Below, piece after piece: positions 3,796-14,971 of a stretch of 22,109 nucleotides of DNA. Origin of the DNA: a virus. The stretch lies in the IMG/VR virus record IMGVR_UViG_3300020215_000146, positions 1 to 22,109 of that record; one strand, given 5' to 3'. Numbering within the stretch: the first letter of the stretch is position 1; every line of letters begins with the position of its first letter. The notes beneath the pieces were generated by a model, which worked only from the letters and a program-made list of their open reading frames with translations, searched no databases and was not told the DNA's origin. The position numbers and the translations under genes were made by a program.

Positions 3796-4776
3796 TTAGC
3801 TATCCTTGCTATCCTTACGAACCACCGTCATACCTCCGAGATGCTTACGAACGCTAGCAATTGAATCCGGAGATAGATGTGAGTATCGCTGTAGCATGAC
3901 TAAGCTAGAATGTCCGGACACTTCCTGAATCACCCTCAAGCTCACCCCAGCCATAACCAATTTAGAGATAAACAGATGCCGGAGCAAATGCCACCGGAAC
4001 CTTACTCCAGATTTCAGAGACAACCTAGTAGCTTGCCGCGGCCATCCTTTTACTGGGAAACACCTTTCATTTCCACTGGCCTGAGCTCTAATAGCCTCTG
4101 CCACTTCTTCAGATATCGGGATAGTTCGGCCTTTCCCTGTCTTAGTACTGGCTCCAGGTATCCTTATCATCATACCCTTCCAGTCAACCCAGGCTGGCCG
4201 TAGAGCGGCGATCTCTCCCCTTCTCATCCCAGTACCAATTGCTACAATCAAAGCCCGCCTAATCGAATCTGACCAAGCTGCCGCATATACCCTCGCAACT
4301 TCCTCATCCGTCAATAGGTAAGGCTCTCGAACTAGGGTTAATCGCGGTAACGTAATATTCTTGGCGGGGTTGTCTACTATGTATCCAAAGCTTACCGCTT
4401 TGCTGAGTAGAGATTTAAGAGCCCCCAAATTCCTTTTAATAGAGCCCGGAGCCATCTTAAGCTTGTCCACCCAAAGTTGAATTGAGTGCCTGGTAATACT
4501 CGCTACCGGCATATCTCCGAAGTCTCTAGCTAGTCTGGCATTCCAGATCTTAGTAGATCCCACGCCTTTCTTGATTAGATCCCATACATCCCTCAGCCTT
4601 TTACTGCGATCCGGCAATCCTACCTGATTCCGCGCATTAGCTGACTTCTGCTGTCTTACCCACTCCCTCGCCGCTTCCCTATCCCAAAACGTTCTCCAAA
4701 TCCTCTTACCACCTACATAAACCGATACTTGGTAGCCATGCTGTTTCTTTCGTCTCCGCATATTTCTACCCGCCAC
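3796..4776 (-). CDS. int: Tyrosine recombinase integrase, 326 aa
   Basis: Site-specific integrase that recombines phage attP with a host attB. Residues 1-60 are a basic arm-binding-like region, 61-145 a SAM-like core-binding domain, and 150-315 the catalytic domain. All catalytic residues are visible: R185 in TGMRRGE, K212 in TKTGKGR, H263-x2-R266 in HLLRH, H289 in SGH and the nucleophile Y298 in QRYSH. GTG at 4776 follows GGAA; an ATG at 4761 is the alternative start. The C-terminus repeats Lys-Asp-Ser twice because of a 9-bp tandem repeat (3799-3816). It is the only minus-strand gene and is divergent from the terminase. Intact, so lysogeny is expected. Confidence 0.95.
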   Translation of the reverse strand: MAGRNMRRRKKQHGYQVSVYVGGKRIWRTFWDREAAREWVRQQKSANARNQVGLPDRSKRLRDVWDLIKKGVGSTKIWNARLARDFGDMPVASITRHSIQLWVDKLKMAPGSIKRNLGALKSLLSKAVSFGYIVDNPAKNITLPRLTLVREPYLLTDEEVARVYAAAWSDSIRRALIVAIGTGMRRGEIAALRPAWVDWKGMMIRIPGASTKTGKGRTIPISEEVAEAIRAQASGNERCFPVKGWPRQATRLSLKSGVRFRWHLLRHLFISKLVMAGVSLRVIQEVSGHSSLVMLQRYSHLSPDSIASVRKHLGGMTVVRKDSKDS

Positions 4777-4859
4777 AACATCATTTCCACTTGATCATTA
4801 CTCGCTCCCATGTTAACCCTATATCTCGTACTGTAGCAATTTGCGACACACAATACCTA
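4777..4859. promoter_or_regulatory. Divergent control region between integrase and terminase
   Basis: These 83 bases separate the preferred starts of the two divergent genes, so promoters in both directions are expected here or inside the flanking coding ends. The region is moderately A/T rich, but I found no pair of boxes close to the sigma70 consensus. Confidence 0.3.
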
Positions 4860-5558
4860 GTGGCCACGCCTAAAAAGAAACTGACTGAACGTGAATCTAT
4901 GCTCCGCGCTGGAGGCCCACTCCCGAAACGGGATGGGGATAAGGTTCGTCGCGGCATTCATCAAACGCTATTAGAAGACAACCCCGAACTATTGCCCGAG
5001 CCCAACCAAGAACAAGCAGAAACTATTGCAATCGAAAACGGTTTAGGTCGGAGGCCCGGGCAAGTTTGGTTTGCTTTTCATATCGTTCGAGGAATGGAAC
5101 CTTATCAAGCTTTTATTGAGTCCGGACACCGGGTGTTAGGCGTAAATGCCGATAAACCGGGCCAGGGTGTTCATACCGAGGAAGCTGCTAAAACCAAAGC
5201 TCTATCCTGGTCTCGTTCTAAATGGTGTCAGGAATTGATGAATCAGTTTAGGCGGCCCCTGGCTGAAGAGACTGAGCTTCTTATGTATGAAGGTATTCCG
5301 GTCCTTAGAGGGGCTATGCGCGCCACATATGCTACGGGAAATCCCGATTGGAATACTCGACTTAACGCGCTTCGCTTGAATGCAGAAATTGCTTATAGAC
5401 AGGCCAGGCTTAGGTTGGACGCTCAAAAGCTCGAAGAAGAAACGAGACATAAGGAAGCAATGGAACGAGCCCGGGCCGAAGCTCCTATTGATCCTGACCT
5501 TAAGAGACTTCTGGAAGAAGCTATAAAGCTGAACGGCGGCGGTACTACACAAGAGTAG
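4860..5558 (+). CDS. Probable terminase small subunit, about 232 aa
   Basis: Its place immediately before the large terminase is the main evidence. The N-terminus is Lys-rich, and residues 60-130 look like a helical DNA-recognition region of the kind TerS proteins use to bind the packaging start. Residues 180-215 are a charged coiled coil suited to ring formation, followed by a short acidic tail that could contact TerL. The frame is open to a TTG at 4791, but the GTG at 4860 gives a typical Ala-Thr-Pro-Lys-Lys-Lys start; no start has a clear Shine-Dalgarno. Nineteen bases separate it from TerL. An unrelated DNA-binding protein is the alternative. Confidence 0.7.
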   Translation: MATPKKKLTERESMLRAGGPLPKRDGDKVRRGIHQTLLEDNPELLPEPNQEQAETIAIENGLGRRPGQVWFAFHIVRGMEPYQAFIESGHRVLGVNADKPGQGVHTEEAAKTKALSWSRSKWCQELMNQFRRPLAEETELLMYEGIPVLRGAMRATYATGNPDWNTRLNALRLNAEIAYRQARLRLDAQKLEEETRHKEAMERARAEAPIDPDLKRLLEEAIKLNGGGTTQE

Positions 5559-5577
5559 TATTACTGATTTACCATTC

Positions 5578-7167
5578 GTGAGTAGTAACAACGAGAGGGC
5601 TTATGAAGCTCTTAATAATCTCTACGCCAAGAACCCGATTCTTTGGATGCGACAGATTGTTAAGACCTTTGATGAGCACGACGCGAAAGAACCTGTAAAG
5701 CCCTTCCCTATTGATAAGCCGTATCTCCTCTCTGCGGCTAAAGTATGGCTCGAAAGCTATCTACTCTTCATCGAAAAATCGCGTCAGTTAATGTTCTCTT
5801 GGCTCCTTATTATCCTCCATTTACATCTCGCCCAATTCACCCCTCACAGGAGGATTTTTTTTCAATCTAAACGCGAAGACGACGCTAAGGCAATGATTGA
5901 TCGGGCATGGTTCGTCTGGGAATCGCAACCTACTTGGATTAAAACTCTCCACCCTGCTACTCGCACGACTACCAAGATAGAGTTTGCTAACGGTTCCGAA
6001 ATTGTTGGTATTCCACACGGGCCTAATGTCCTGCGCCAGTATACGAGTTCCGCCGTTTTATCCGATGAACAAGCTTTCCAAGAAGATGCGGAAGAATCTT
6101 TTGGCGCTGCCATGCCGACGATTACGGGCGGTGGAAGATTTACAGGTGTTAGTACGGCTAATCCTGGTTTCTTCTATTCGGCCACCACTAAAGCCAAGGA
6201 ACAGGCTAGATCGGAAACTCAGATTCAGGAAGGTGTAACTTACTGGAAGGGTGCGGACGGTAAATTTTCAGTTCTCCGAGTACATTATAGCGCCGATCCC
6301 GATCCTAAGACTCAACAGAAAGTTAACGAAGCCAAGGATGCTTATATCTCTGCCGGTCGTATCGCCTGGTTTAAGAAAGAGTATGAGATCGATTACGGAG
6401 CGCTGTCCGGAGAACTGATTTGGCCCGAGCTTAATCCTGAAGTTCATATTCTGACTCCGTTTTCCATTCCTCATGATTGGCCGCGATACCGTGCTATTGA
6501 TCCTGGCTGGCGTAATCCGTGTGGTGTGATATGGGCCGCCGTCGCTCCTTTAGGTTGGAGAGATTGCCAGATAAACGGTAAATCCATATCTCCCATTATC
6601 ATCTACAGAGAGTTTCGAGAAAGCCAGTGGACCGTTCCGGATATTGCTAAGGCCATCAAACACCGCTCTCTAGGTGAATCATTCGTTACGACTCTAATAG
6701 ATCCTTCCGCAAAGATTACTCGAGGAAACGAGTCGGCCGGTCGTAATACGTTCGAACAATTTCAGCAAGAGGGCTTAGGGGTTATTCCTGCTAATAATGC
6801 CGTTGATGCGGGACTAGATGACGTTCGCCGACGACTGTGCATTTACGGAAAATCTCCCGCCCTCTATTTTTTCTCTAATCTCACTCATACTTGGCGCGAA
6901 ATCACACACTATCGATACCAGCAACTCAGTGCCCGAGTAATGGAAACGGCCGATCCTCCGGAAAAGCCTATGAAGAAAGACGATCATTTGGCCGACTGTG
7001 TCCGATATCTGTGCTCTTATGCTCCGCTCAGGCTTCCGGATGAATATAAGTACAAGCCCGTAGAAACCCCGAAACGAACCTTCAAGCAAGTCCTTAACCA
7101 GCAAACCCAAATTGCCTATCAGCGCGGCCTTCTAGGTAACGCATTTTTTCGTAATAGAGTCCTGTAG
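5578..7167 (+). CDS. terL: Terminase large subunit, ATPase-nuclease, 529 aa
   Basis: The motor that cuts concatemeric DNA and drives it through the portal. The ATPase half carries a non-classical P-loop at residues 67-75 (KSRQLMFSW), Walker B with D163-E164, and the coupling motif Ser-Thr-Ala-Asn at 192-195. The RNase H-like nuclease half has D308 (RAIDPG), D375 (LIDPS) and D469/D473 in KKDDHLADCVRY. All expected motifs are in order, and the length is usual. The P-loop lacks the GKT/S core, which is common in phage terminases. GTG at 5578 has no strong ribosome binding site. The stop overlaps the portal start (TAGTG). Confidence 0.95.
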   Translation: MSSNNERAYEALNNLYAKNPILWMRQIVKTFDEHDAKEPVKPFPIDKPYLLSAAKVWLESYLLFIEKSRQLMFSWLLIILHLHLAQFTPHRRIFFQSKREDDAKAMIDRAWFVWESQPTWIKTLHPATRTTTKIEFANGSEIVGIPHGPNVLRQYTSSAVLSDEQAFQEDAEESFGAAMPTITGGGRFTGVSTANPGFFYSATTKAKEQARSETQIQEGVTYWKGADGKFSVLRVHYSADPDPKTQQKVNEAKDAYISAGRIAWFKKEYEIDYGALSGELIWPELNPEVHILTPFSIPHDWPRYRAIDPGWRNPCGVIWAAVAPLGWRDCQINGKSISPIIIYREFRESQWTVPDIAKAIKHRSLGESFVTTLIDPSAKITRGNESAGRNTFEQFQQEGLGVIPANNAVDAGLDDVRRRLCIYGKSPALYFFSNLTHTWREITHYRYQQLSARVMETADPPEKPMKKDDHLADCVRYLCSYAPLRLPDEYKYKPVETPKRTFKQVLNQQTQIAYQRGLLGNAFFRNRVL

Positions 7168-9269
7168 TGGATAAATTTACTCATAAGTCGACCGCGCAAT
7201 TGTGGTTGGACCGCATTAAGAACGCCCGTACTGCTCGCACGCATTGTGAGGAAGATTGGGAAGAAAATAGGCGCATGATTAACGCCTCTTCCTATATTGA
7301 TCGCCCATCCCAGTATGACCGGGTTTGGGTTAATCACATGCTCTCCCTGACTCGTATTGTAGTGCCTTTGCTGTACTACAAGAACCCCGAGTTTACGTGT
7401 CTTCCTATGAGGGAGCAGGATGAGCCTAGGTATCGAGTCGTTCAGGAAGCTATTAATCATTGGGCCAAAGTTATCAAGCTCAAACACCCCGCTAAAGAGG
7501 CCATTCTTGATGCACTGGTCGCATCATTCGGCTGTCTTAAAGTCGGTTGGGTCATTGAAGAAGTCGAGCTTAAGGTTGCGGTAGACGAAGCCGGTAATAA
7601 GACTGTGGTTGACGAGTCGAAGGATATCCCGCTCTCTGCCGCTCAGGTTCATTTAGTTCAAGCTGGTATTGGTAGTAGGCCGTTCACCCTTAGAGTGAGT
7701 CCTTGGAATATCGTCCGTAACGTTGGCTCTACCTCCATTAAGAATGCATCTTGGGTAGCGGAACGGATCTTTAAGAGACTGGGCGAAGTTAAGAAGGATA
7801 AGCAGTATAAGCACACTAAAGATCTTAGGCCTAATGCTACTCCTATGATGGAGGCTCGCGACTTTTCTGGTGATGGAATGATTTCCATGAATCAGAACGG
7901 GGATGATATAGCCGCTGCTCGAGCCCTTATTGATCCTGACGACGAACTGGTAGAGCTCTGGGAAATTTGGGATAGGTCCGATCCTTCCGAGCCTAAGAGG
8001 TACGTCATTGCTGAAGGCGTAGATAAGCCTCTACTTGAGGATGACTGGCCCTATGACCTGGACGGCCGCTTTCCCTATATCGAGCTCAGACTTGTTGATG
8101 TACCGGACGAACCATACCCGGTCAGTTTCCTATCTGCTGTCAAAGAGCTTATACGCGAGCTCAATATCATATCTACTTACGAACTCGATTTTGTTAAGAG
8201 AGCTAACCCCCGCGTTGCCTACGATAAAAATGTCATTACTGACGAGAATGAAATCCAGGCCCTGAAGCGCGGGGAACCCGGCAACGTATTAGGAATTAAT
8301 GGAGACCCGAATAGGGCGTTTGCACAGGTCGGTGGAGCTAATCTCAGTCCAGATTTGAAATGGGTTCATATGAAGGCACAAGAAAACCTTCAGCTCATTT
8401 CTGGTATTGGGGACATCTTTAGAGGCGGGGAAGCTCAACCTGGAGAACTGGCAACCGTTGCTAATATCCGCTCTCAGGCTCTCTCAGTAATGGTGCAGGA
8501 TCTACAGGATCGCGTATCCGATATGATGGTCGAGTGGGCCGAAGATATCGATATGCTCGCTAAAGAATATTGCGATAAGCCTGAAATGATCCGCATTACT
8601 GGACAGGTCGGGTTTAGCTGGACTTCCTTTAGCAAGACGGATCTTCAGGGTAAGTACGAGCATCAGATTGTTCCGGGCTCTCTGCAGCCCATGAATAAGG
8701 AAGTCGAGCTTAAGCAAAGGCTGGATTTCTTTAACTTGGTCGCGCCTTTTATTAACCCGATGGAAATGCAGATTAACGGGAAAGAGTTGGTTCGCGCCAT
8801 TGCTGAAGTGTTCCCTATTAAGGGCCTGAATAAGATTCTAATGGACGAGCAACCCCCGCCTCCCGCAGTTCCTGCTGAAGAGAATTTCCTTATTCAAGAG
8901 GGCGGCTCCCCTACTGTTAGTCCGGAAGAAGACTTCGATGAGCACCTTGCAATTCATACTCAGTGGCTCGAGCAGCTCCTCTCTAATCCTTCCGTTGATC
9001 CGGCCCTCATTTATCGATTGAAGAAGCATATCGTAGATACCTACCAGGAACAGCTTAAGCAGATGGCCCTGCAGCAAATGATGGGTCAAGGAATGGGTAT
9101 GGGTATGGGCATGCCCGGTCAACCGACTCAGCTCAATAGAGGCCCTGGTAATGGTGGTCCTGCGAATAATAACCCGATCCGTCCCCGATTAATGTCCGAA
9201 CAACAGCCGACTACTGGCGGCATTTTGAGTGCAACAAACAGGAGTGAATCGCCATTTCAGCCGAAGTAA
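7167..9269 (+). CDS. Portal protein, 700 aa
   Basis: Forms the dodecameric ring at the head vertex through which DNA enters and leaves. Support is its place directly after TerL with a one-base overlap, a size close to the P22 portal (about 725 residues), and a sequence of the P22-like kind: charged helical N-terminus, a Trp-Val-Asn-His region near residue 53, a wing-like beta domain around 180-330, and a stem/crown region at 390-560. The C-terminal 150 residues are low-complexity: Pro-rich near 570, then a Met-Gly repeat around 632-654, then Asn/Gly/Pro rich. The GTG at 7167 starts it. A long helical barrel at the C-terminus is not obvious. Confidence 0.85.
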   Translation: MDKFTHKSTAQLWLDRIKNARTARTHCEEDWEENRRMINASSYIDRPSQYDRVWVNHMLSLTRIVVPLLYYKNPEFTCLPMREQDEPRYRVVQEAINHWAKVIKLKHPAKEAILDALVASFGCLKVGWVIEEVELKVAVDEAGNKTVVDESKDIPLSAAQVHLVQAGIGSRPFTLRVSPWNIVRNVGSTSIKNASWVAERIFKRLGEVKKDKQYKHTKDLRPNATPMMEARDFSGDGMISMNQNGDDIAAARALIDPDDELVELWEIWDRSDPSEPKRYVIAEGVDKPLLEDDWPYDLDGRFPYIELRLVDVPDEPYPVSFLSAVKELIRELNIISTYELDFVKRANPRVAYDKNVITDENEIQALKRGEPGNVLGINGDPNRAFAQVGGANLSPDLKWVHMKAQENLQLISGIGDIFRGGEAQPGELATVANIRSQALSVMVQDLQDRVSDMMVEWAEDIDMLAKEYCDKPEMIRITGQVGFSWTSFSKTDLQGKYEHQIVPGSLQPMNKEVELKQRLDFFNLVAPFINPMEMQINGKELVRAIAEVFPIKGLNKILMDEQPPPPAVPAEENFLIQEGGSPTVSPEEDFDEHLAIHTQWLEQLLSNPSVDPALIYRLKKHIVDTYQEQLKQMALQQMMGQGMGMGMGMPGQPTQLNRGPGNGGPANNNPIRPRLMSEQQPTTGGILSATNRSESPFQPK

Positions 9270-9286: not shown

Positions 9287-9604
9287 TTGGAAGAGAACCC
9301 GCAGATTGTCCCGGAAGACCAACATATCCCACTCCCCTTTCCTCTCTTGGTTGCGAACACTGGATCACACCTTGTCCTCGCCGAAATTAAGGAAAATAAA
9401 GGCGCTATACTCGCGATCCTTGAAACGCAAACTAACAACTTTGTGGCTGAAGGGGCTATCGAGTTTAATGCGCCGCCGATTGGGATGGAAATTAGCACGT
9501 TCTGGACTGAAGCACTGCAGCATGCGGCTCGAGAAATGCTCGCCGGACTTGATAAAAGATTGGCCACTCCTAAACGAAAGCTCGTCGTTGTTGGGGGAAA
9601 GTGA
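9287..9604 (+). CDS. Hypothetical protein, 105-116 aa, unusual start
   Basis: Soluble, with a Pro-rich N-terminus, a central beta-like segment and a C-terminal helix ending in a basic patch. No known motif. TTG at 9287 is the only conventional start in frame but has no ribosome binding site. An ATT at 9254 lies nine bases after AGGAG (9240-9244) and would add 11 acidic, natural-looking residues; the frame is closed further upstream by a TGA at 9245. The stop overlaps the next gene (TGATG). It sits between portal and zinc-ribbon protein, a place often used for small structural or assembly genes. Confidence 0.65.
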   Translation: MEENPQIVPEDQHIPLPFPLLVANTGSHLVLAEIKENKGAILAILETQTNNFVAEGAIEFNAPPIGMEISTFWTEALQHAAREMLAGLDKRLATPKRKLVVVGGK

Positions 9605-9960
9605 TGGCCCTGTATTTGGGTTTATGCCAGATACATGGTCGGGTCGATGTTTGGGCATCTATGCAAGACGGTATCGAAGGTAACTTATCTTGTCCCGAAT
9701 GTCTTAGGAAAGTCGAAAGAGTCTATACCGCCCCATACGATCATTCCGAGAATACTTGGAGACCCTACTACTCAGAGCAGCTTAGTCCGGGCAGAGACCC
9801 CGTGTATGTCAAGAGCCGTTCTGATTATTATGGTCTAATGAAGAATTCAGGTCTAAGGCCGTATGAGTCTGGCATGGATAAAGATAAAGCCCGTAAGCGG
9901 GCCGAAGAACACGAAAAATCTATAGATGAAACCTGGAAAAAAGTCACTGAAACATTGTGA
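9604..9960 (+). CDS. Zinc-ribbon protein (FmdB-like), 118 aa
   Basis: Residues C8-x2-H11 and C30-x2-C33 form a zinc ribbon, followed by the Val-Glu-Arg-Val-Tyr-Thr-Ala-Pro stretch typical of the small FmdB-type ribbon proteins common in phage head modules. The middle is Tyr/Ser/Arg rich and the last 30 residues are a charged helix. ATG at 9604 overlaps the previous stop and follows GGGGG; a GTG at 9601 is possible but worse placed. The role in phage is not established; a virion or assembly function is inferred from its position. Confidence 0.75.
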   Translation: MALYLGLCQIHGRVDVWASMQDGIEGNLSCPECLRKVERVYTAPYDHSENTWRPYYSEQLSPGRDPVYVKSRSDYYGLMKNSGLRPYESGMDKDKARKRAEEHEKSIDETWKKVTETL

Positions 9961-11033: not shown

Positions 11034-12014
11034 ATGGCTACTACTTCTTTGTCGCTGAATTATGGCGACATGCTCTCTACTACCCTTTTTAAGTGGTGGA
11101 AATCGGGCGGAATTCCCGATCAGATTTTTAAGGGCCTGACCCTTTTTAAGTACCTTGATAAGCGCGTCGAGAAGGTTGACGGCGGCGATCGTATTCAGAT
11201 TCCCATTATGTGGCAGGAGAATCCTACCGCCGGCAGCTATCGACATTTCGATTTGCTGAATATGACCCCATCGGAGCCCTTTACTTCGGCCTTTTTCGAT
11301 TTCAAGCAGTTCGCGGTAGGTATCTTTATCTCCGGCCTTGAAATGCTTGCGAATAATGGTGCGTCACAGGTCTTTAATCTGTGGAAACAGCGATACAATT
11401 CGGCCGTTCTTAGCGCTCAGAAGAGGCTTAATGACCATTTGTGGTCGGACGGCACGGGTAATAACAGCAAGGATTTCCTGGGTATCCAGGCCATTGTAAG
11501 CACGACTCCCACTACTGGGACGATCGGTGGTATTAACCGGGCTACCGCTTCTAACGCATTTTGGCGTAATAAGGCTGACACGGTCGGTTCTTTCGAATCG
11601 AACGGCATTAAGAAGCTCCGGGAAATGTGGGTTGACGTTAGTGAGAATGTTCCGGCCGGTAAGCCGACCGTGCATTTCGTCGATCCCGATACCTATACCC
11701 GCTACGAAAATACGCTGCAGCCGCTCGAGCGATTTACTCAGGTTACTGGTGGCCAGAAGGGCGATGCCGGTTTCGGTTCGTTGACCTGGAAGCAGGCTCC
11801 GGTTGAGTTCGATAACGCGTGCCCAGCTAATAGCTGGTACATGCTCAATACGAACTTCCTTCATTTCGTGGTGCACAAGGATTGTTACTGGAAGCCTACC
11901 GAACGAGAACGGCCGGTTGATCAGCACGCTTATGCTCAGCATATCCTTCTGATGGGGGAACTCTGCTTTAGCGCTGCTCGTTTCTTCGGGGTTCTGAGCT
12001 CCATTACCGACTAA
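11034..12014 (+). CDS. Major capsid protein, 326 aa
   Basis: Expected to form the icosahedral shell with an HK97-type fold. The evidence is its position after the scaffold, a fitting length, and sequence features of phage coat proteins: a hydrophobic N-arm, a beta-strand region (Asp-Gly-Gly-Asp-Arg-Ile-Gln-Ile-Pro near residue 50), a helical spine (about 105-140), a Gly/Asn-rich loop with Trp-Ser-Asp-Gly-Thr-Gly near 138, then an A-domain-like region ending in hydrophobic strands. No ribosome binding site precedes the ATG. There is no obvious N-terminal propeptide, consistent with a separate scaffold. Confidence 0.85.
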   Translation: MATTSLSLNYGDMLSTTLFKWWKSGGIPDQIFKGLTLFKYLDKRVEKVDGGDRIQIPIMWQENPTAGSYRHFDLLNMTPSEPFTSAFFDFKQFAVGIFISGLEMLANNGASQVFNLWKQRYNSAVLSAQKRLNDHLWSDGTGNNSKDFLGIQAIVSTTPTTGTIGGINRATASNAFWRNKADTVGSFESNGIKKLREMWVDVSENVPAGKPTVHFVDPDTYTRYENTLQPLERFTQVTGGQKGDAGFGSLTWKQAPVEFDNACPANSWYMLNTNFLHFVVHKDCYWKPTERERPVDQHAYAQHILLMGELCFSAARFFGVLSSITD

Positions 12015-13280: not shown

Positions 13281-13790
13281 ATGTCTACTGCTGTAATTGG
13301 GTTTGATTTGACCCGTGTTTATACTTCCGTTAGTCCTTCTGGTAGCGGCGAACAGTCGCCTAGGCTTGGACAGGTCTATATTGATGGGCAGGGCAATAGG
13401 TATCGGTTCGTCAAGAACCTCCACTCTTCTACGCTTGCCGTTGGCGATGTTGTTTTTTACGACTACACGAACGGCGTAAGCTATGAAGTAGCTAGGCTTG
13501 GCACTGGGATTTCAGGGCTCGATGCTATGGCTGGGGCCGCTATGGGCACTATTGCTACTAACGGTTTTGGCTGGATTCAGATCGCTGGAGACGGCACCGC
13601 TCTGGTGCATGGCGGTACTGCTGTTACTATCGGGGATTCGCTTAAGGGTAGCAACGCTCAGCTTTATGTGATCAAGGACGCAGATATCGGTACGGCTCCG
13701 GCCCATCATAATCATATGAGGGTTAGGGTCGATTATTCGACCGCTTCGGGCGCATTGAAGGCCGTCACGATCAATTGTCATTCCTGGTAA
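13281..13790 (+). CDS. Putative head decoration or structural protein, 169 aa
   Basis: A small beta-rich protein: Gly-Asp-Val-Val-Phe-Tyr (about residue 55), Gly-Phe-Gly-Trp-Ile-Gln-Ile near 95-101, and a Val-Thr-Ile-Gly-Asp turn near 117. From memory, proteins with this pattern often sit next to phage capsid genes and are described as structural or decoration-like; that could not be checked. A His cluster (H142, H143, H145) precedes the last strands. The ATG follows an A/T-rich spacer with AAAGAAA but no canonical Shine-Dalgarno. Confidence 0.7.
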   Translation: MSTAVIGFDLTRVYTSVSPSGSGEQSPRLGQVYIDGQGNRYRFVKNLHSSTLAVGDVVFYDYTNGVSYEVARLGTGISGLDAMAGAAMGTIATNGFGWIQIAGDGTALVHGGTAVTIGDSLKGSNAQLYVIKDADIGTAPAHHNHMRVRVDYSTASGALKAVTINCHSW

Positions 13791-13808
13791 TTTGGAGGGG
13801 ATCCTAAA

Positions 13809-14075
13809 TTGGCATCTGACTCTAACAAGGTCGTTTACCCGCCCTGGGCTAATTATGTCCCGGAAAATGGGGTAAAGGGCTCCAACTCTAATCAGGATGA
13901 CGGATATCCGCCCTGGGCTAACTATAGACCTGGAAAACCTGAAGAAGCGGAAGCCGTTAAGGCCGAGGCTAAGGTTGCAACTCCGTCTCCCTATTTGTGT
14001 TGTGATAAAGACTGGTTGACGCCGCGACAGCTTCGCGGCCATAAGCTTGGTGCGCACAAGGAAAAACCGCAGTAA
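13809..14075 (+). CDS. Small protein with duplicated YPPWANY motif and degenerate C2H2 finger, 88 aa
   Basis: TTG at 13809 follows a strong Shine-Dalgarno, GGAGGGG (13794-13800). YPPWANYVP at residues 10-18 and YPPWANYRP at 33-41 are near-perfect copies, each within a disordered Gly/Asn/Pro context. A Glu/Ala/Lys linker (44-57) leads to a C-terminal finger-like end: C64-C65, then Trp, Leu, Gly-H78 and H83 with the 12- and 4-residue spacings of C2H2 fingers, but with the usual two residues between the cysteines missing. Probably a minor virion or assembly protein; the motif could be a short docking peptide. Function unknown. Confidence 0.7.
   Translation: MASDSNKVVYPPWANYVPENGVKGSNSNQDDGYPPWANYRPGKPEEAEAVKAEAKVATPSPYLCCDKDWLTPRQLRGHKLGAHKEKPQ
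13836..13931 (+). repeat. Two copies of a 9-residue YPPWANY-x-P coding repeat
   Basis: Copies lie at 13836-13862 and 13905-13931, 69 bases apart in phase. At DNA level both contain CCGCCCTGGGCTAA, while third positions around it differ. This points to an old, selected duplication rather than a recent slippage event. Confidence 0.7.
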
Positions 14076-14080
14076 TTTAG

Positions 14081-14971
14081 ATGACGCCCACTGAAATGGT
14101 TTCGAAAATCTCTGATGAATTGCATGATCAGGGATTGGGGACGCGTCCGTATGACTGGATAAATAAGGTCCAGGAAGATATGAACGCGCGATGTTATTGG
14201 TCGGTCCTGGAAGTGGGCACGCCCTACTTGTTCCAAATTAAAGCCCCCGTCACGGCCGGCACTGTCACTGCTACTAATGGTTCTACAACCGTTACCGGCT
14301 CTGGTACGAGCTTCAGTAATAGTCTACACGCAGGCCAGATTATTCAGATCGCGTCCGAGAGCTCCTACTACTTCATCTCATCTGTTTCAAGCTCTACCTC
14401 ACTGACTCTCACTACTCCCTATATCGGGACGACCGGATCGGGCAAAACCTATTCGATCGACTACCTCAACTACTCCCTGCCGTCCGATGTATCCGTCCAA
14501 AAGATTAAGTCGATAGTCATCCAGAACCCGCACGTTAAGCTGTGGAGAATGGATCAATCGCAGAGGGACGAGGTATGGCCCAATTTGGTCGGATACCGTG
14601 GTAAGCCGATTGCATACTTGGACTGGGGAGAAACTAAGCTCCAGCCATACCCACTCTCCGATGCCGATTACCTTGCAGTGATAAGGTACCAGAAAAAGCC
14701 GTCTGAGGTTAATTCGGACTCTACTAGCTTCGACTGGCCGGCTCAATATCACTGGGCGATTCTTACCGGAGCATTGGCTTTAGGCTGGGATTGGAAAGAC
14801 GACCAAACAATGTCGGAAAAGGTGACGACCGATTACGAGAAGATGCTTCAGTGTCACATTAGAGAAAATAACCGACATATGGACACCCACTCTCAGATGA
14901 GAGCCTTCGACGAAGATTGCCACCCTCAGTTTAGACTTACCCGCCTTATTACAGGCCAGCATATCGGCTAA
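14081..14971 (+). CDS. Head-tail adaptor or tail accessory protein, 296 aa
   Basis: The helical N-terminus (1-45) and the C-terminal part (130-296, with Trp-rich helices around 235-250) look like a phage connector protein that binds under the portal. Between them, residues 56-129 form a Thr/Ser/Gly-rich beta domain (Gly-Thr-Val-Thr-Ala-Thr-Asn-Gly ... Gly-Lys-Thr-Tyr-Ser-Ile) of a kind found in many phage tail proteins, apparently inserted. Order after capsid and decoration genes and before the nozzle-like gene supports the call. P22 gp4 does this job but is much smaller, so homology is not claimed. Confidence 0.6.
   Translation: MTPTEMVSKISDELHDQGLGTRPYDWINKVQEDMNARCYWSVLEVGTPYLFQIKAPVTAGTVTATNGSTTVTGSGTSFSNSLHAGQIIQIASESSYYFISSVSSSTSLTLTTPYIGTTGSGKTYSIDYLNYSLPSDVSVQKIKSIVIQNPHVKLWRMDQSQRDEVWPNLVGYRGKPIAYLDWGETKLQPYPLSDADYLAVIRYQKKPSEVNSDSTSFDWPAQYHWAILTGALALGWDWKDDQTMSEKVTTDYEKMLQCHIRENNRHMDTHSQMRAFDEDCHPQFRLTRLITGQHIG

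Follow-up and report, generated by a model that had tools for sequence, protein, structure and literature searches.

What does a gene for 88 amino acids do directly before the adaptor gene of a podovirus-like phage, when its product carries one seven-residue peptide twice and ends in what resembles a zinc finger with its two cysteines side by side? The answer we favor, at a rough probability of 40%, is that its product is small and largely disordered and assists assembly of the head-to-tail neck through two docking peptides. The gene was analyzed in a single virus record of 22,109 bases with unknown coverage, and this whole stretch is hereafter called the window.

Gene neighborhood

The open frame at 13809-14075 on the plus strand gives 88 aa, and the coordinates and residues of the original prediction were correct. 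The gene and the neighbors used for orientation are the following:

11034..12014, plus strand: major capsid gene, the synteny anchor (phrog_9953, E 2.4e-59)
13281..13790, plus strand: 169-aa gene 5' of the 88-aa gene, with a weak match to phrog_29386, a virion structural protein family (E 1.4e-6)
13809..14075, plus strand: 88-aa ORF with a TTG start, an orphan without a family match in the slot directly 5' of the adaptor gene
14081..14971, plus strand: SU10-type adaptor gene, the 3' neighbor (PF24175, E 5.6e-12)

The TTG start is preceded by GGAGGGG-ATCCTAAA, a good Shine-Dalgarno sequence, and the gene lies 18 bases from the 169-aa gene on its 5' side and 5 bases from the adaptor gene on its 3' side. 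Along the plus strand the window reads terminase, portal, likely scaffold, major capsid, three genes, the 88-aa gene, adaptor, and tail genes, with the terminase and scaffold labels based on relatives and gene position. The 88-aa gene lies in the head-tail operon of a podovirus-like phage, which is probably temperate given a tyrosine integrase gene at 3796-4776 on the minus strand (PF00589, E 1e-21); no tRNA genes were found in the window. An antisense ORF of 181 aa (13512-14057) was rejected as a true gene solely on the operon fit of the plus-strand frame. The predicted disorder of the 88-aa protein is based on its composition and on a low-confidence single-sequence model (AlphaFold2 without an alignment; pLDDT 56, no finger).

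Two further features of the window were recorded. Positions 9601-9960, between the portal and likely scaffold genes, encode 119 aa that weakly match a zinc ribbon, below the cut-off (PF23549, E 0.0013), and the adaptor (14081-14971) contains an extra stretch, at about residues 57-130, that matches tail-fiber families (phrog_1980 and others) and is absent from the aligned Mx8/Mx9 adaptors.

Searches for relatives

The original prediction named no family with such a plan, and Pfam and PHROGs likewise gave no significant match to the full 88-aa protein, nor did Pfam to its halves; a match to phrog_27754 (E 0.055, 14 residues) was judged to be chance. The whole protein had no homolog in IMG/VR, where one locus (L001) was confirmed out of 21 pattern stretches, with an overlap limited to residues 71-84, the end of the finger. 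That locus encodes, at 4329-5045, a 238-aa protein with a C-x4-C finger at its end and the same RGHKLGAHK terminus. None of 117 pattern-matching stretches in GTDB genome contigs was related to the 88-aa protein, the full protein had no match in a PDB sequence search, and tblastn against GenBank phages gave no matches with the whole protein, the repeat, the L001 finger, or the L108 protein described below. The finger itself returned five phage records, none with an E below 2 and all in integrase or hypothetical genes, which we took as chance. As for recurrence of the duplicated motif in other phage proteins, scans of IMG/VR viral contigs for exact YPPWANY and for YPxWANYxP gave zero hits, while a looser tandem YPPW yielded one plausible case, L108. 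The searched collections may omit records very near the window's own; with no homolog found, the 88-aa protein shows no conservation outside this one record.

As single queries, the window's major capsid protein and adaptor found no relatives among viral contigs, and neither did the capsid protein in genome contigs or the adaptor in phages. With the terminase as query, ten distant loci were recovered from viral contigs and 46 weak records from phages; the next tail gene yielded three weak records. In the literature, we found no publication linking YPPW with phage and none combining a phage structural protein, a C2H2 zinc finger, and an AT-hook, and titles and abstract openings held no description of such a protein.

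A duplicated peptide

The repeat comprises the following features:

13815..13880, plus strand: duplicated unit, copy 1, SDSNKVVYPPWANYVPENGVKG, from DNA repeats D1 and D3, shuffles, and codon alignment
13836..13856, plus strand: YPPWANY copy 1, from DNA repeats
13881..13952, plus strand: duplicated unit, copy 2, SNSNQDDGYPPWANYRPGKPEEAE, with homology clear only as far as YPPWANYRP
13905..13925, plus strand: YPPWANY copy 2, with two synonymous and no amino-acid differences from copy 1

YPPWANY occupies residues 10-16 and 33-39 of the 88-aa protein, and the near-identity predicted for two nine-residue motifs holds, with the YPPWANYxP pair agreeing at 8 of 9 residues. Two DNA repeat families, spaced 69 and 66 bases apart, show that the repeated unit is longer than this motif. 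The units align as SDSNK-VVYPPWANYVP against SNSNQDDGYPPWANYRP, with one 3-base indel between the copies. At the DNA level the duplication spans about 22-23 codons in tandem, and YPPWANY is its conserved core. When the protein was shuffled 200,000 times, an exact 7-mer repeat came up twice, and the alignment scores of the protein halves and of the two 72-base DNA units were reached in 0 of 20,000 and 0 of 5,000 shuffles, respectively. Between the units, residues changed at none of the 7 motif codons and at 6 of the 10 flanking codons (Fisher P 0.03, with the motif chosen post hoc), and this constant motif amid drifting flanks hints at selection on YPPWANY.

A finger-like tail with adjacent cysteines

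The C-terminal part of the protein holds one further feature:

13992..14057, plus strand: C2H2-like tail, YLCCDKDWLTPRQLRGHKLGAH, with vicinal Cys, from the consensus, shuffles, and the gap against 2yt9; no Pfam match

A finger with C2H2 spacing and vicinal cysteines had been predicted, and YLCCDKDWLTPRQLRGHKLGAH indeed fits Y-x-C-(0)-C-x3-W-x5-L-x2-H-x4-H. Its only deviation from the listed C2H2 positions is the missing two-residue Cys-Cys spacer: W, L, and H-x4-H stand in register, and the two or four residues that C2H2 fingers have between their cysteines are absent. The full pattern, written post hoc, arose in 0 of 200,000 shuffles and the loose pattern C-x0-5-C-x12-H-x3-5-H in 16 of 200,000; the shuffles disfavor a chance origin of the repeat and of the finger-like tail alike. 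Against the PDB, phmmer aligned the tail to one C2H2 chain, 2yt9, at a non-significant E of 0.84, and the alignment opens a gap of two residues at precisely the point where the cysteines meet. No Pfam family matched the tail alone at E 10, a test with little power because the control C-x4-C finger of L001 also went unmatched. AlphaFold2 models were discarded, the 88-aa protein being modeled at low confidence and the matched L001 control fragment not being folded as a finger. Since the two spacer residues are gone, canonical tetrahedral zinc binding by the tail is, on general grounds, probably lost.

The chief alternative to a neck-assembly protein is that the gene is decaying or weakly constrained, in which case the duplication would be recent neutral slippage, the finger would have lost two residues, and neither feature would work. 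With 78% identity left across 32 bases of the duplicated DNA, the motif may be merely young; moreover, no conservation can be demonstrated outside one record, and an in-frame loss of six bases between two TGT codons would be an easy mutation. Against decay speak the open frame with its strong ribosome site and tight operon spacing, the 7 of 7 motif residues held while 6 of 10 flanking codons changed, and the remaining finger core (Tyr, Trp, Leu, His, His), which is intact, and we regard decay as unlikely, if still a serious contender.

More doubtful is a true zinc finger with vicinal cysteines, in which one or both Cys and the two His would coordinate zinc with unusual geometry, or two chains in a ring would share a zinc. 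Every consensus position outside the spacer is kept, the two Cys and two His among them, and there are proteins, metallothioneins for example, in which neighboring cysteines can both coordinate metal. Yet two neighboring residues on one zinc are rare in a small finger, and the absence of a Pfam match at E 10 also speaks against it.

The slot before the adaptor gene

The window's capsid protein has relatives in phages such as Mx8 and Mx9: it matched 11 phage records at 25-35% identity, with at least 80% of the query covered in 10 of them. We scored 91 loci, namely 80 of 503 relatives kept from an IMG/VR capsid scan, loci L003-L012 from named and environmental phages, and the window; 22 with less than 2.8 kb downstream were dropped, leaving 69. 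The scoring models drew on 8 p50 proteins and on 9 adaptors, the window's own among the latter. A p50-like ORF and an adaptor ORF occurred together in 67 of the 69 loci (67 of 68 without the window), a count that does not equal independent events because near-identical contigs were kept and 8 p50 and 8 adaptor members had trained the models. The two ORFs were adjacent (gap -60 to 120) in 63 of the 67 by longest-ORF starts, a choice that can mask small genes like Mx9_p84; L026, L104, and L011 have larger gaps, and L091 has both in one ORF. The exceptions among the 69 were the window, with the adaptor alone, and L009, with neither at the cut-off.

No plus-strand ORF of the window matched the eight-protein p50 model at E 10, and the 88-aa gene lies, like p50, 3' of the capsid and decoration genes and 5' of the adaptor gene. 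What is new here is a phage that lacks p50, otherwise near-universal in its lineage, and has the 88-aa gene in its place. In the 90 other loci, the 5 kb that follow the capsid gene contain no convincing YPPW or C2H2 ORF, the scattered matches being, by our reading, short or shifted frames.

The joined ORF of L091 (4487-5527) contains the first two thirds of p50 and most of the adaptor (positions 10-128 of 192 in the p50 model and 22-233 of 236 in the adaptor model) and is a natural fusion, a deletion, or an assembly chimera.

Tandem YPPW and small slot proteins in other viruses

The looser scan of IMG/VR sought two YPPW codon strings 40-70 bases apart, with the first Tyr as TAT only, and returned six loci with one plausible coding case, L108 (IMGVR_UViG_3300024518_001753). 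L107 and L109 were set aside as the same low-complexity ORF, L106 and L111 as repeat-rich frames, and L110 because its repeat spacing is not divisible by three. The minus strand of L108 encodes, at positions 6632-7606, a 325-aa protein with ELGKDFYPPWEGEN in tandem (region FELGKDFYPPWEGENLEGGPTELGKDFYPPWEGEN). Its gene lies directly 5' of an SU10-type adaptor gene (PF24175, E 3e-8), and another gene of this type follows further downstream (E 1.5e-21). YPPW occurs in 2 of 2,000 forward-strand ORFs of at least 80 aa from the collected loci, the window gene and the low-complexity L109, and the L108 gene falls outside this count because its locus carries it on the minus strand. The L108 and window adaptors match each other pairwise at chance level (15.8 bits, E 1.4). 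A tandem YPPW 5' of an adaptor gene in two unrelated viruses is suggestive as a parallel with n = 1. Residues 74-155 of the L108 adaptor also match a tail-fiber family.

Gene order was compared in three phage regions, HMO-2011, Pam5, and ctype202. Pam5 gene 07 encodes 81 aa with an AT-hook-like tail (PF02178, E 0.086, below the cut-off) directly 5' of a gene annotated as adaptor, and ct52p938 (L009) has a 106-aa protein with an AT-hook-like tail directly 5' of a PF24175 gene (E 6.8e-19); both loci are without a p50-like ORF in the slot. No small AT-hook or finger protein was seen in the HMO-2011 and ctype202 slots, and AT-hook-like tails occur in 3 of 81 p50 ORFs. The GRPRK AT-hook tail is absent from the 88-aa protein, and no sequence common to this protein and the small slot genes of other phages was detected.

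The AT-hook-like tails of the L009 and Pam5 slot proteins, together with the C2H2-like basic tail of the 88-aa protein, would also suit a DNA-binding regulatory or accessory cargo gene among the structural genes, with its finger on DNA and without a virion role. This is improbable for a gene on the same strand as its neighbors, at gaps of 18 and 5 bases and in place of p50, whose product has no detected DNA-binding domain. The loss of two codons from a normal finger by faulty assembly or sequencing is very improbable, since the missing bases would have to number exactly six and leave the frame intact, and indel errors usually break it, although the record is single, with unknown coverage and no second record.

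A possible role in neck assembly

We thus return to the neck-assembly reading. The 88-aa gene stands where relatives keep a different head-tail gene, so its product probably helps build the head-tail joint. Counting for this are the 5-base gap to an SU10-type adaptor gene, the co-occurrence of p50 and adaptor in 67 of 68 other loci with p50 absent from the window, the retention of the motif while its flanks changed, the tandem YPPW before the adaptor gene in L108, and the small AT-hook-tailed proteins in the L009 and Pam5 slots. Counting against it are the lack of a homolog beyond one record, the status of L108 as a single case with an otherwise unrelated protein and a chance-level adaptor match, the lack of a convincing YPPW or C2H2 motif in 90 other loci, and the lack of detected sequence likeness to the slot genes of other phages.

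Mechanistically, the protein, known here from its gene alone, would be made together with the virion genes. Its gene arose partly through tandem duplication with both copies retaining YPPWANY, and each YPPWANY would be a short putative docking peptide whose aromatic side chains fit into a pocket on a partner built as a ring. The likeliest such partner would be the adaptor ring (dodecameric in phage SU10) or the portal to which the adaptor is joined. Two copies per chain could provide avidity across neighboring subunits. The tail was likely derived from a C2H2 finger, and what remains as a basic tail may contact DNA or the ring. A precedent for aromatic docking in a tail of this kind is found in phage SU10, where, as described in PMC9509320, nozzle dock-loop tryptophans hold the short tail fiber.

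A bolder version, in which p50 was replaced by a neck-assembly protein with its twin YPPW on the adaptor ring, a device evolved independently in L108, and with a vicinal-Cys metal-binding tail, has little likelihood as a whole. If twin YPPW did bind adaptor rings in two unrelated viruses, it would constitute a testable docking code at the head-tail joint. In the Mx8-type capsid lineage a p50 protein, from a family without an annotated function, nearly always precedes the adaptor, and a p50-less phage with an 88-aa peptide-like protein offers a small handle on the role of the pre-adaptor position.

Among known systems, the p50 family (phrog_20268) of Mx8-type podoviruses shares the pre-adaptor place in the capsid lineage, whereas its members have about 200 aa and no sequence match to the 88-aa protein. 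The C2H2 finger of 2yt9 resembles the tail in aromatic-x-Cys, Cys-x3-aromatic, and x5-Leu-x2-His-x4-His, but the tail has no residues between its cysteines and no Pfam match. The L001 protein (IMGVR_UViG_3300037247_000506), also from a viral contig, shares a C-terminal finger with the RGHKLGAHK end and differs in its C-x4-C spacing, its 238 aa, and its lack of YPPW. The L108 protein has the tandem YPPW and the position directly 5' of an SU10-type adaptor gene, yet at 325 aa, without a finger and with other flanks (ELGKDFYPPWEGEN), it is otherwise unrelated. Finally, Pam5 gene 07 and the ct52p938 slot protein carry an AT-hook-like tail instead of a finger and are without YPPW, but like the 88-aa protein they are short, end in a basic C-terminal tail, and are encoded directly before the adaptor.
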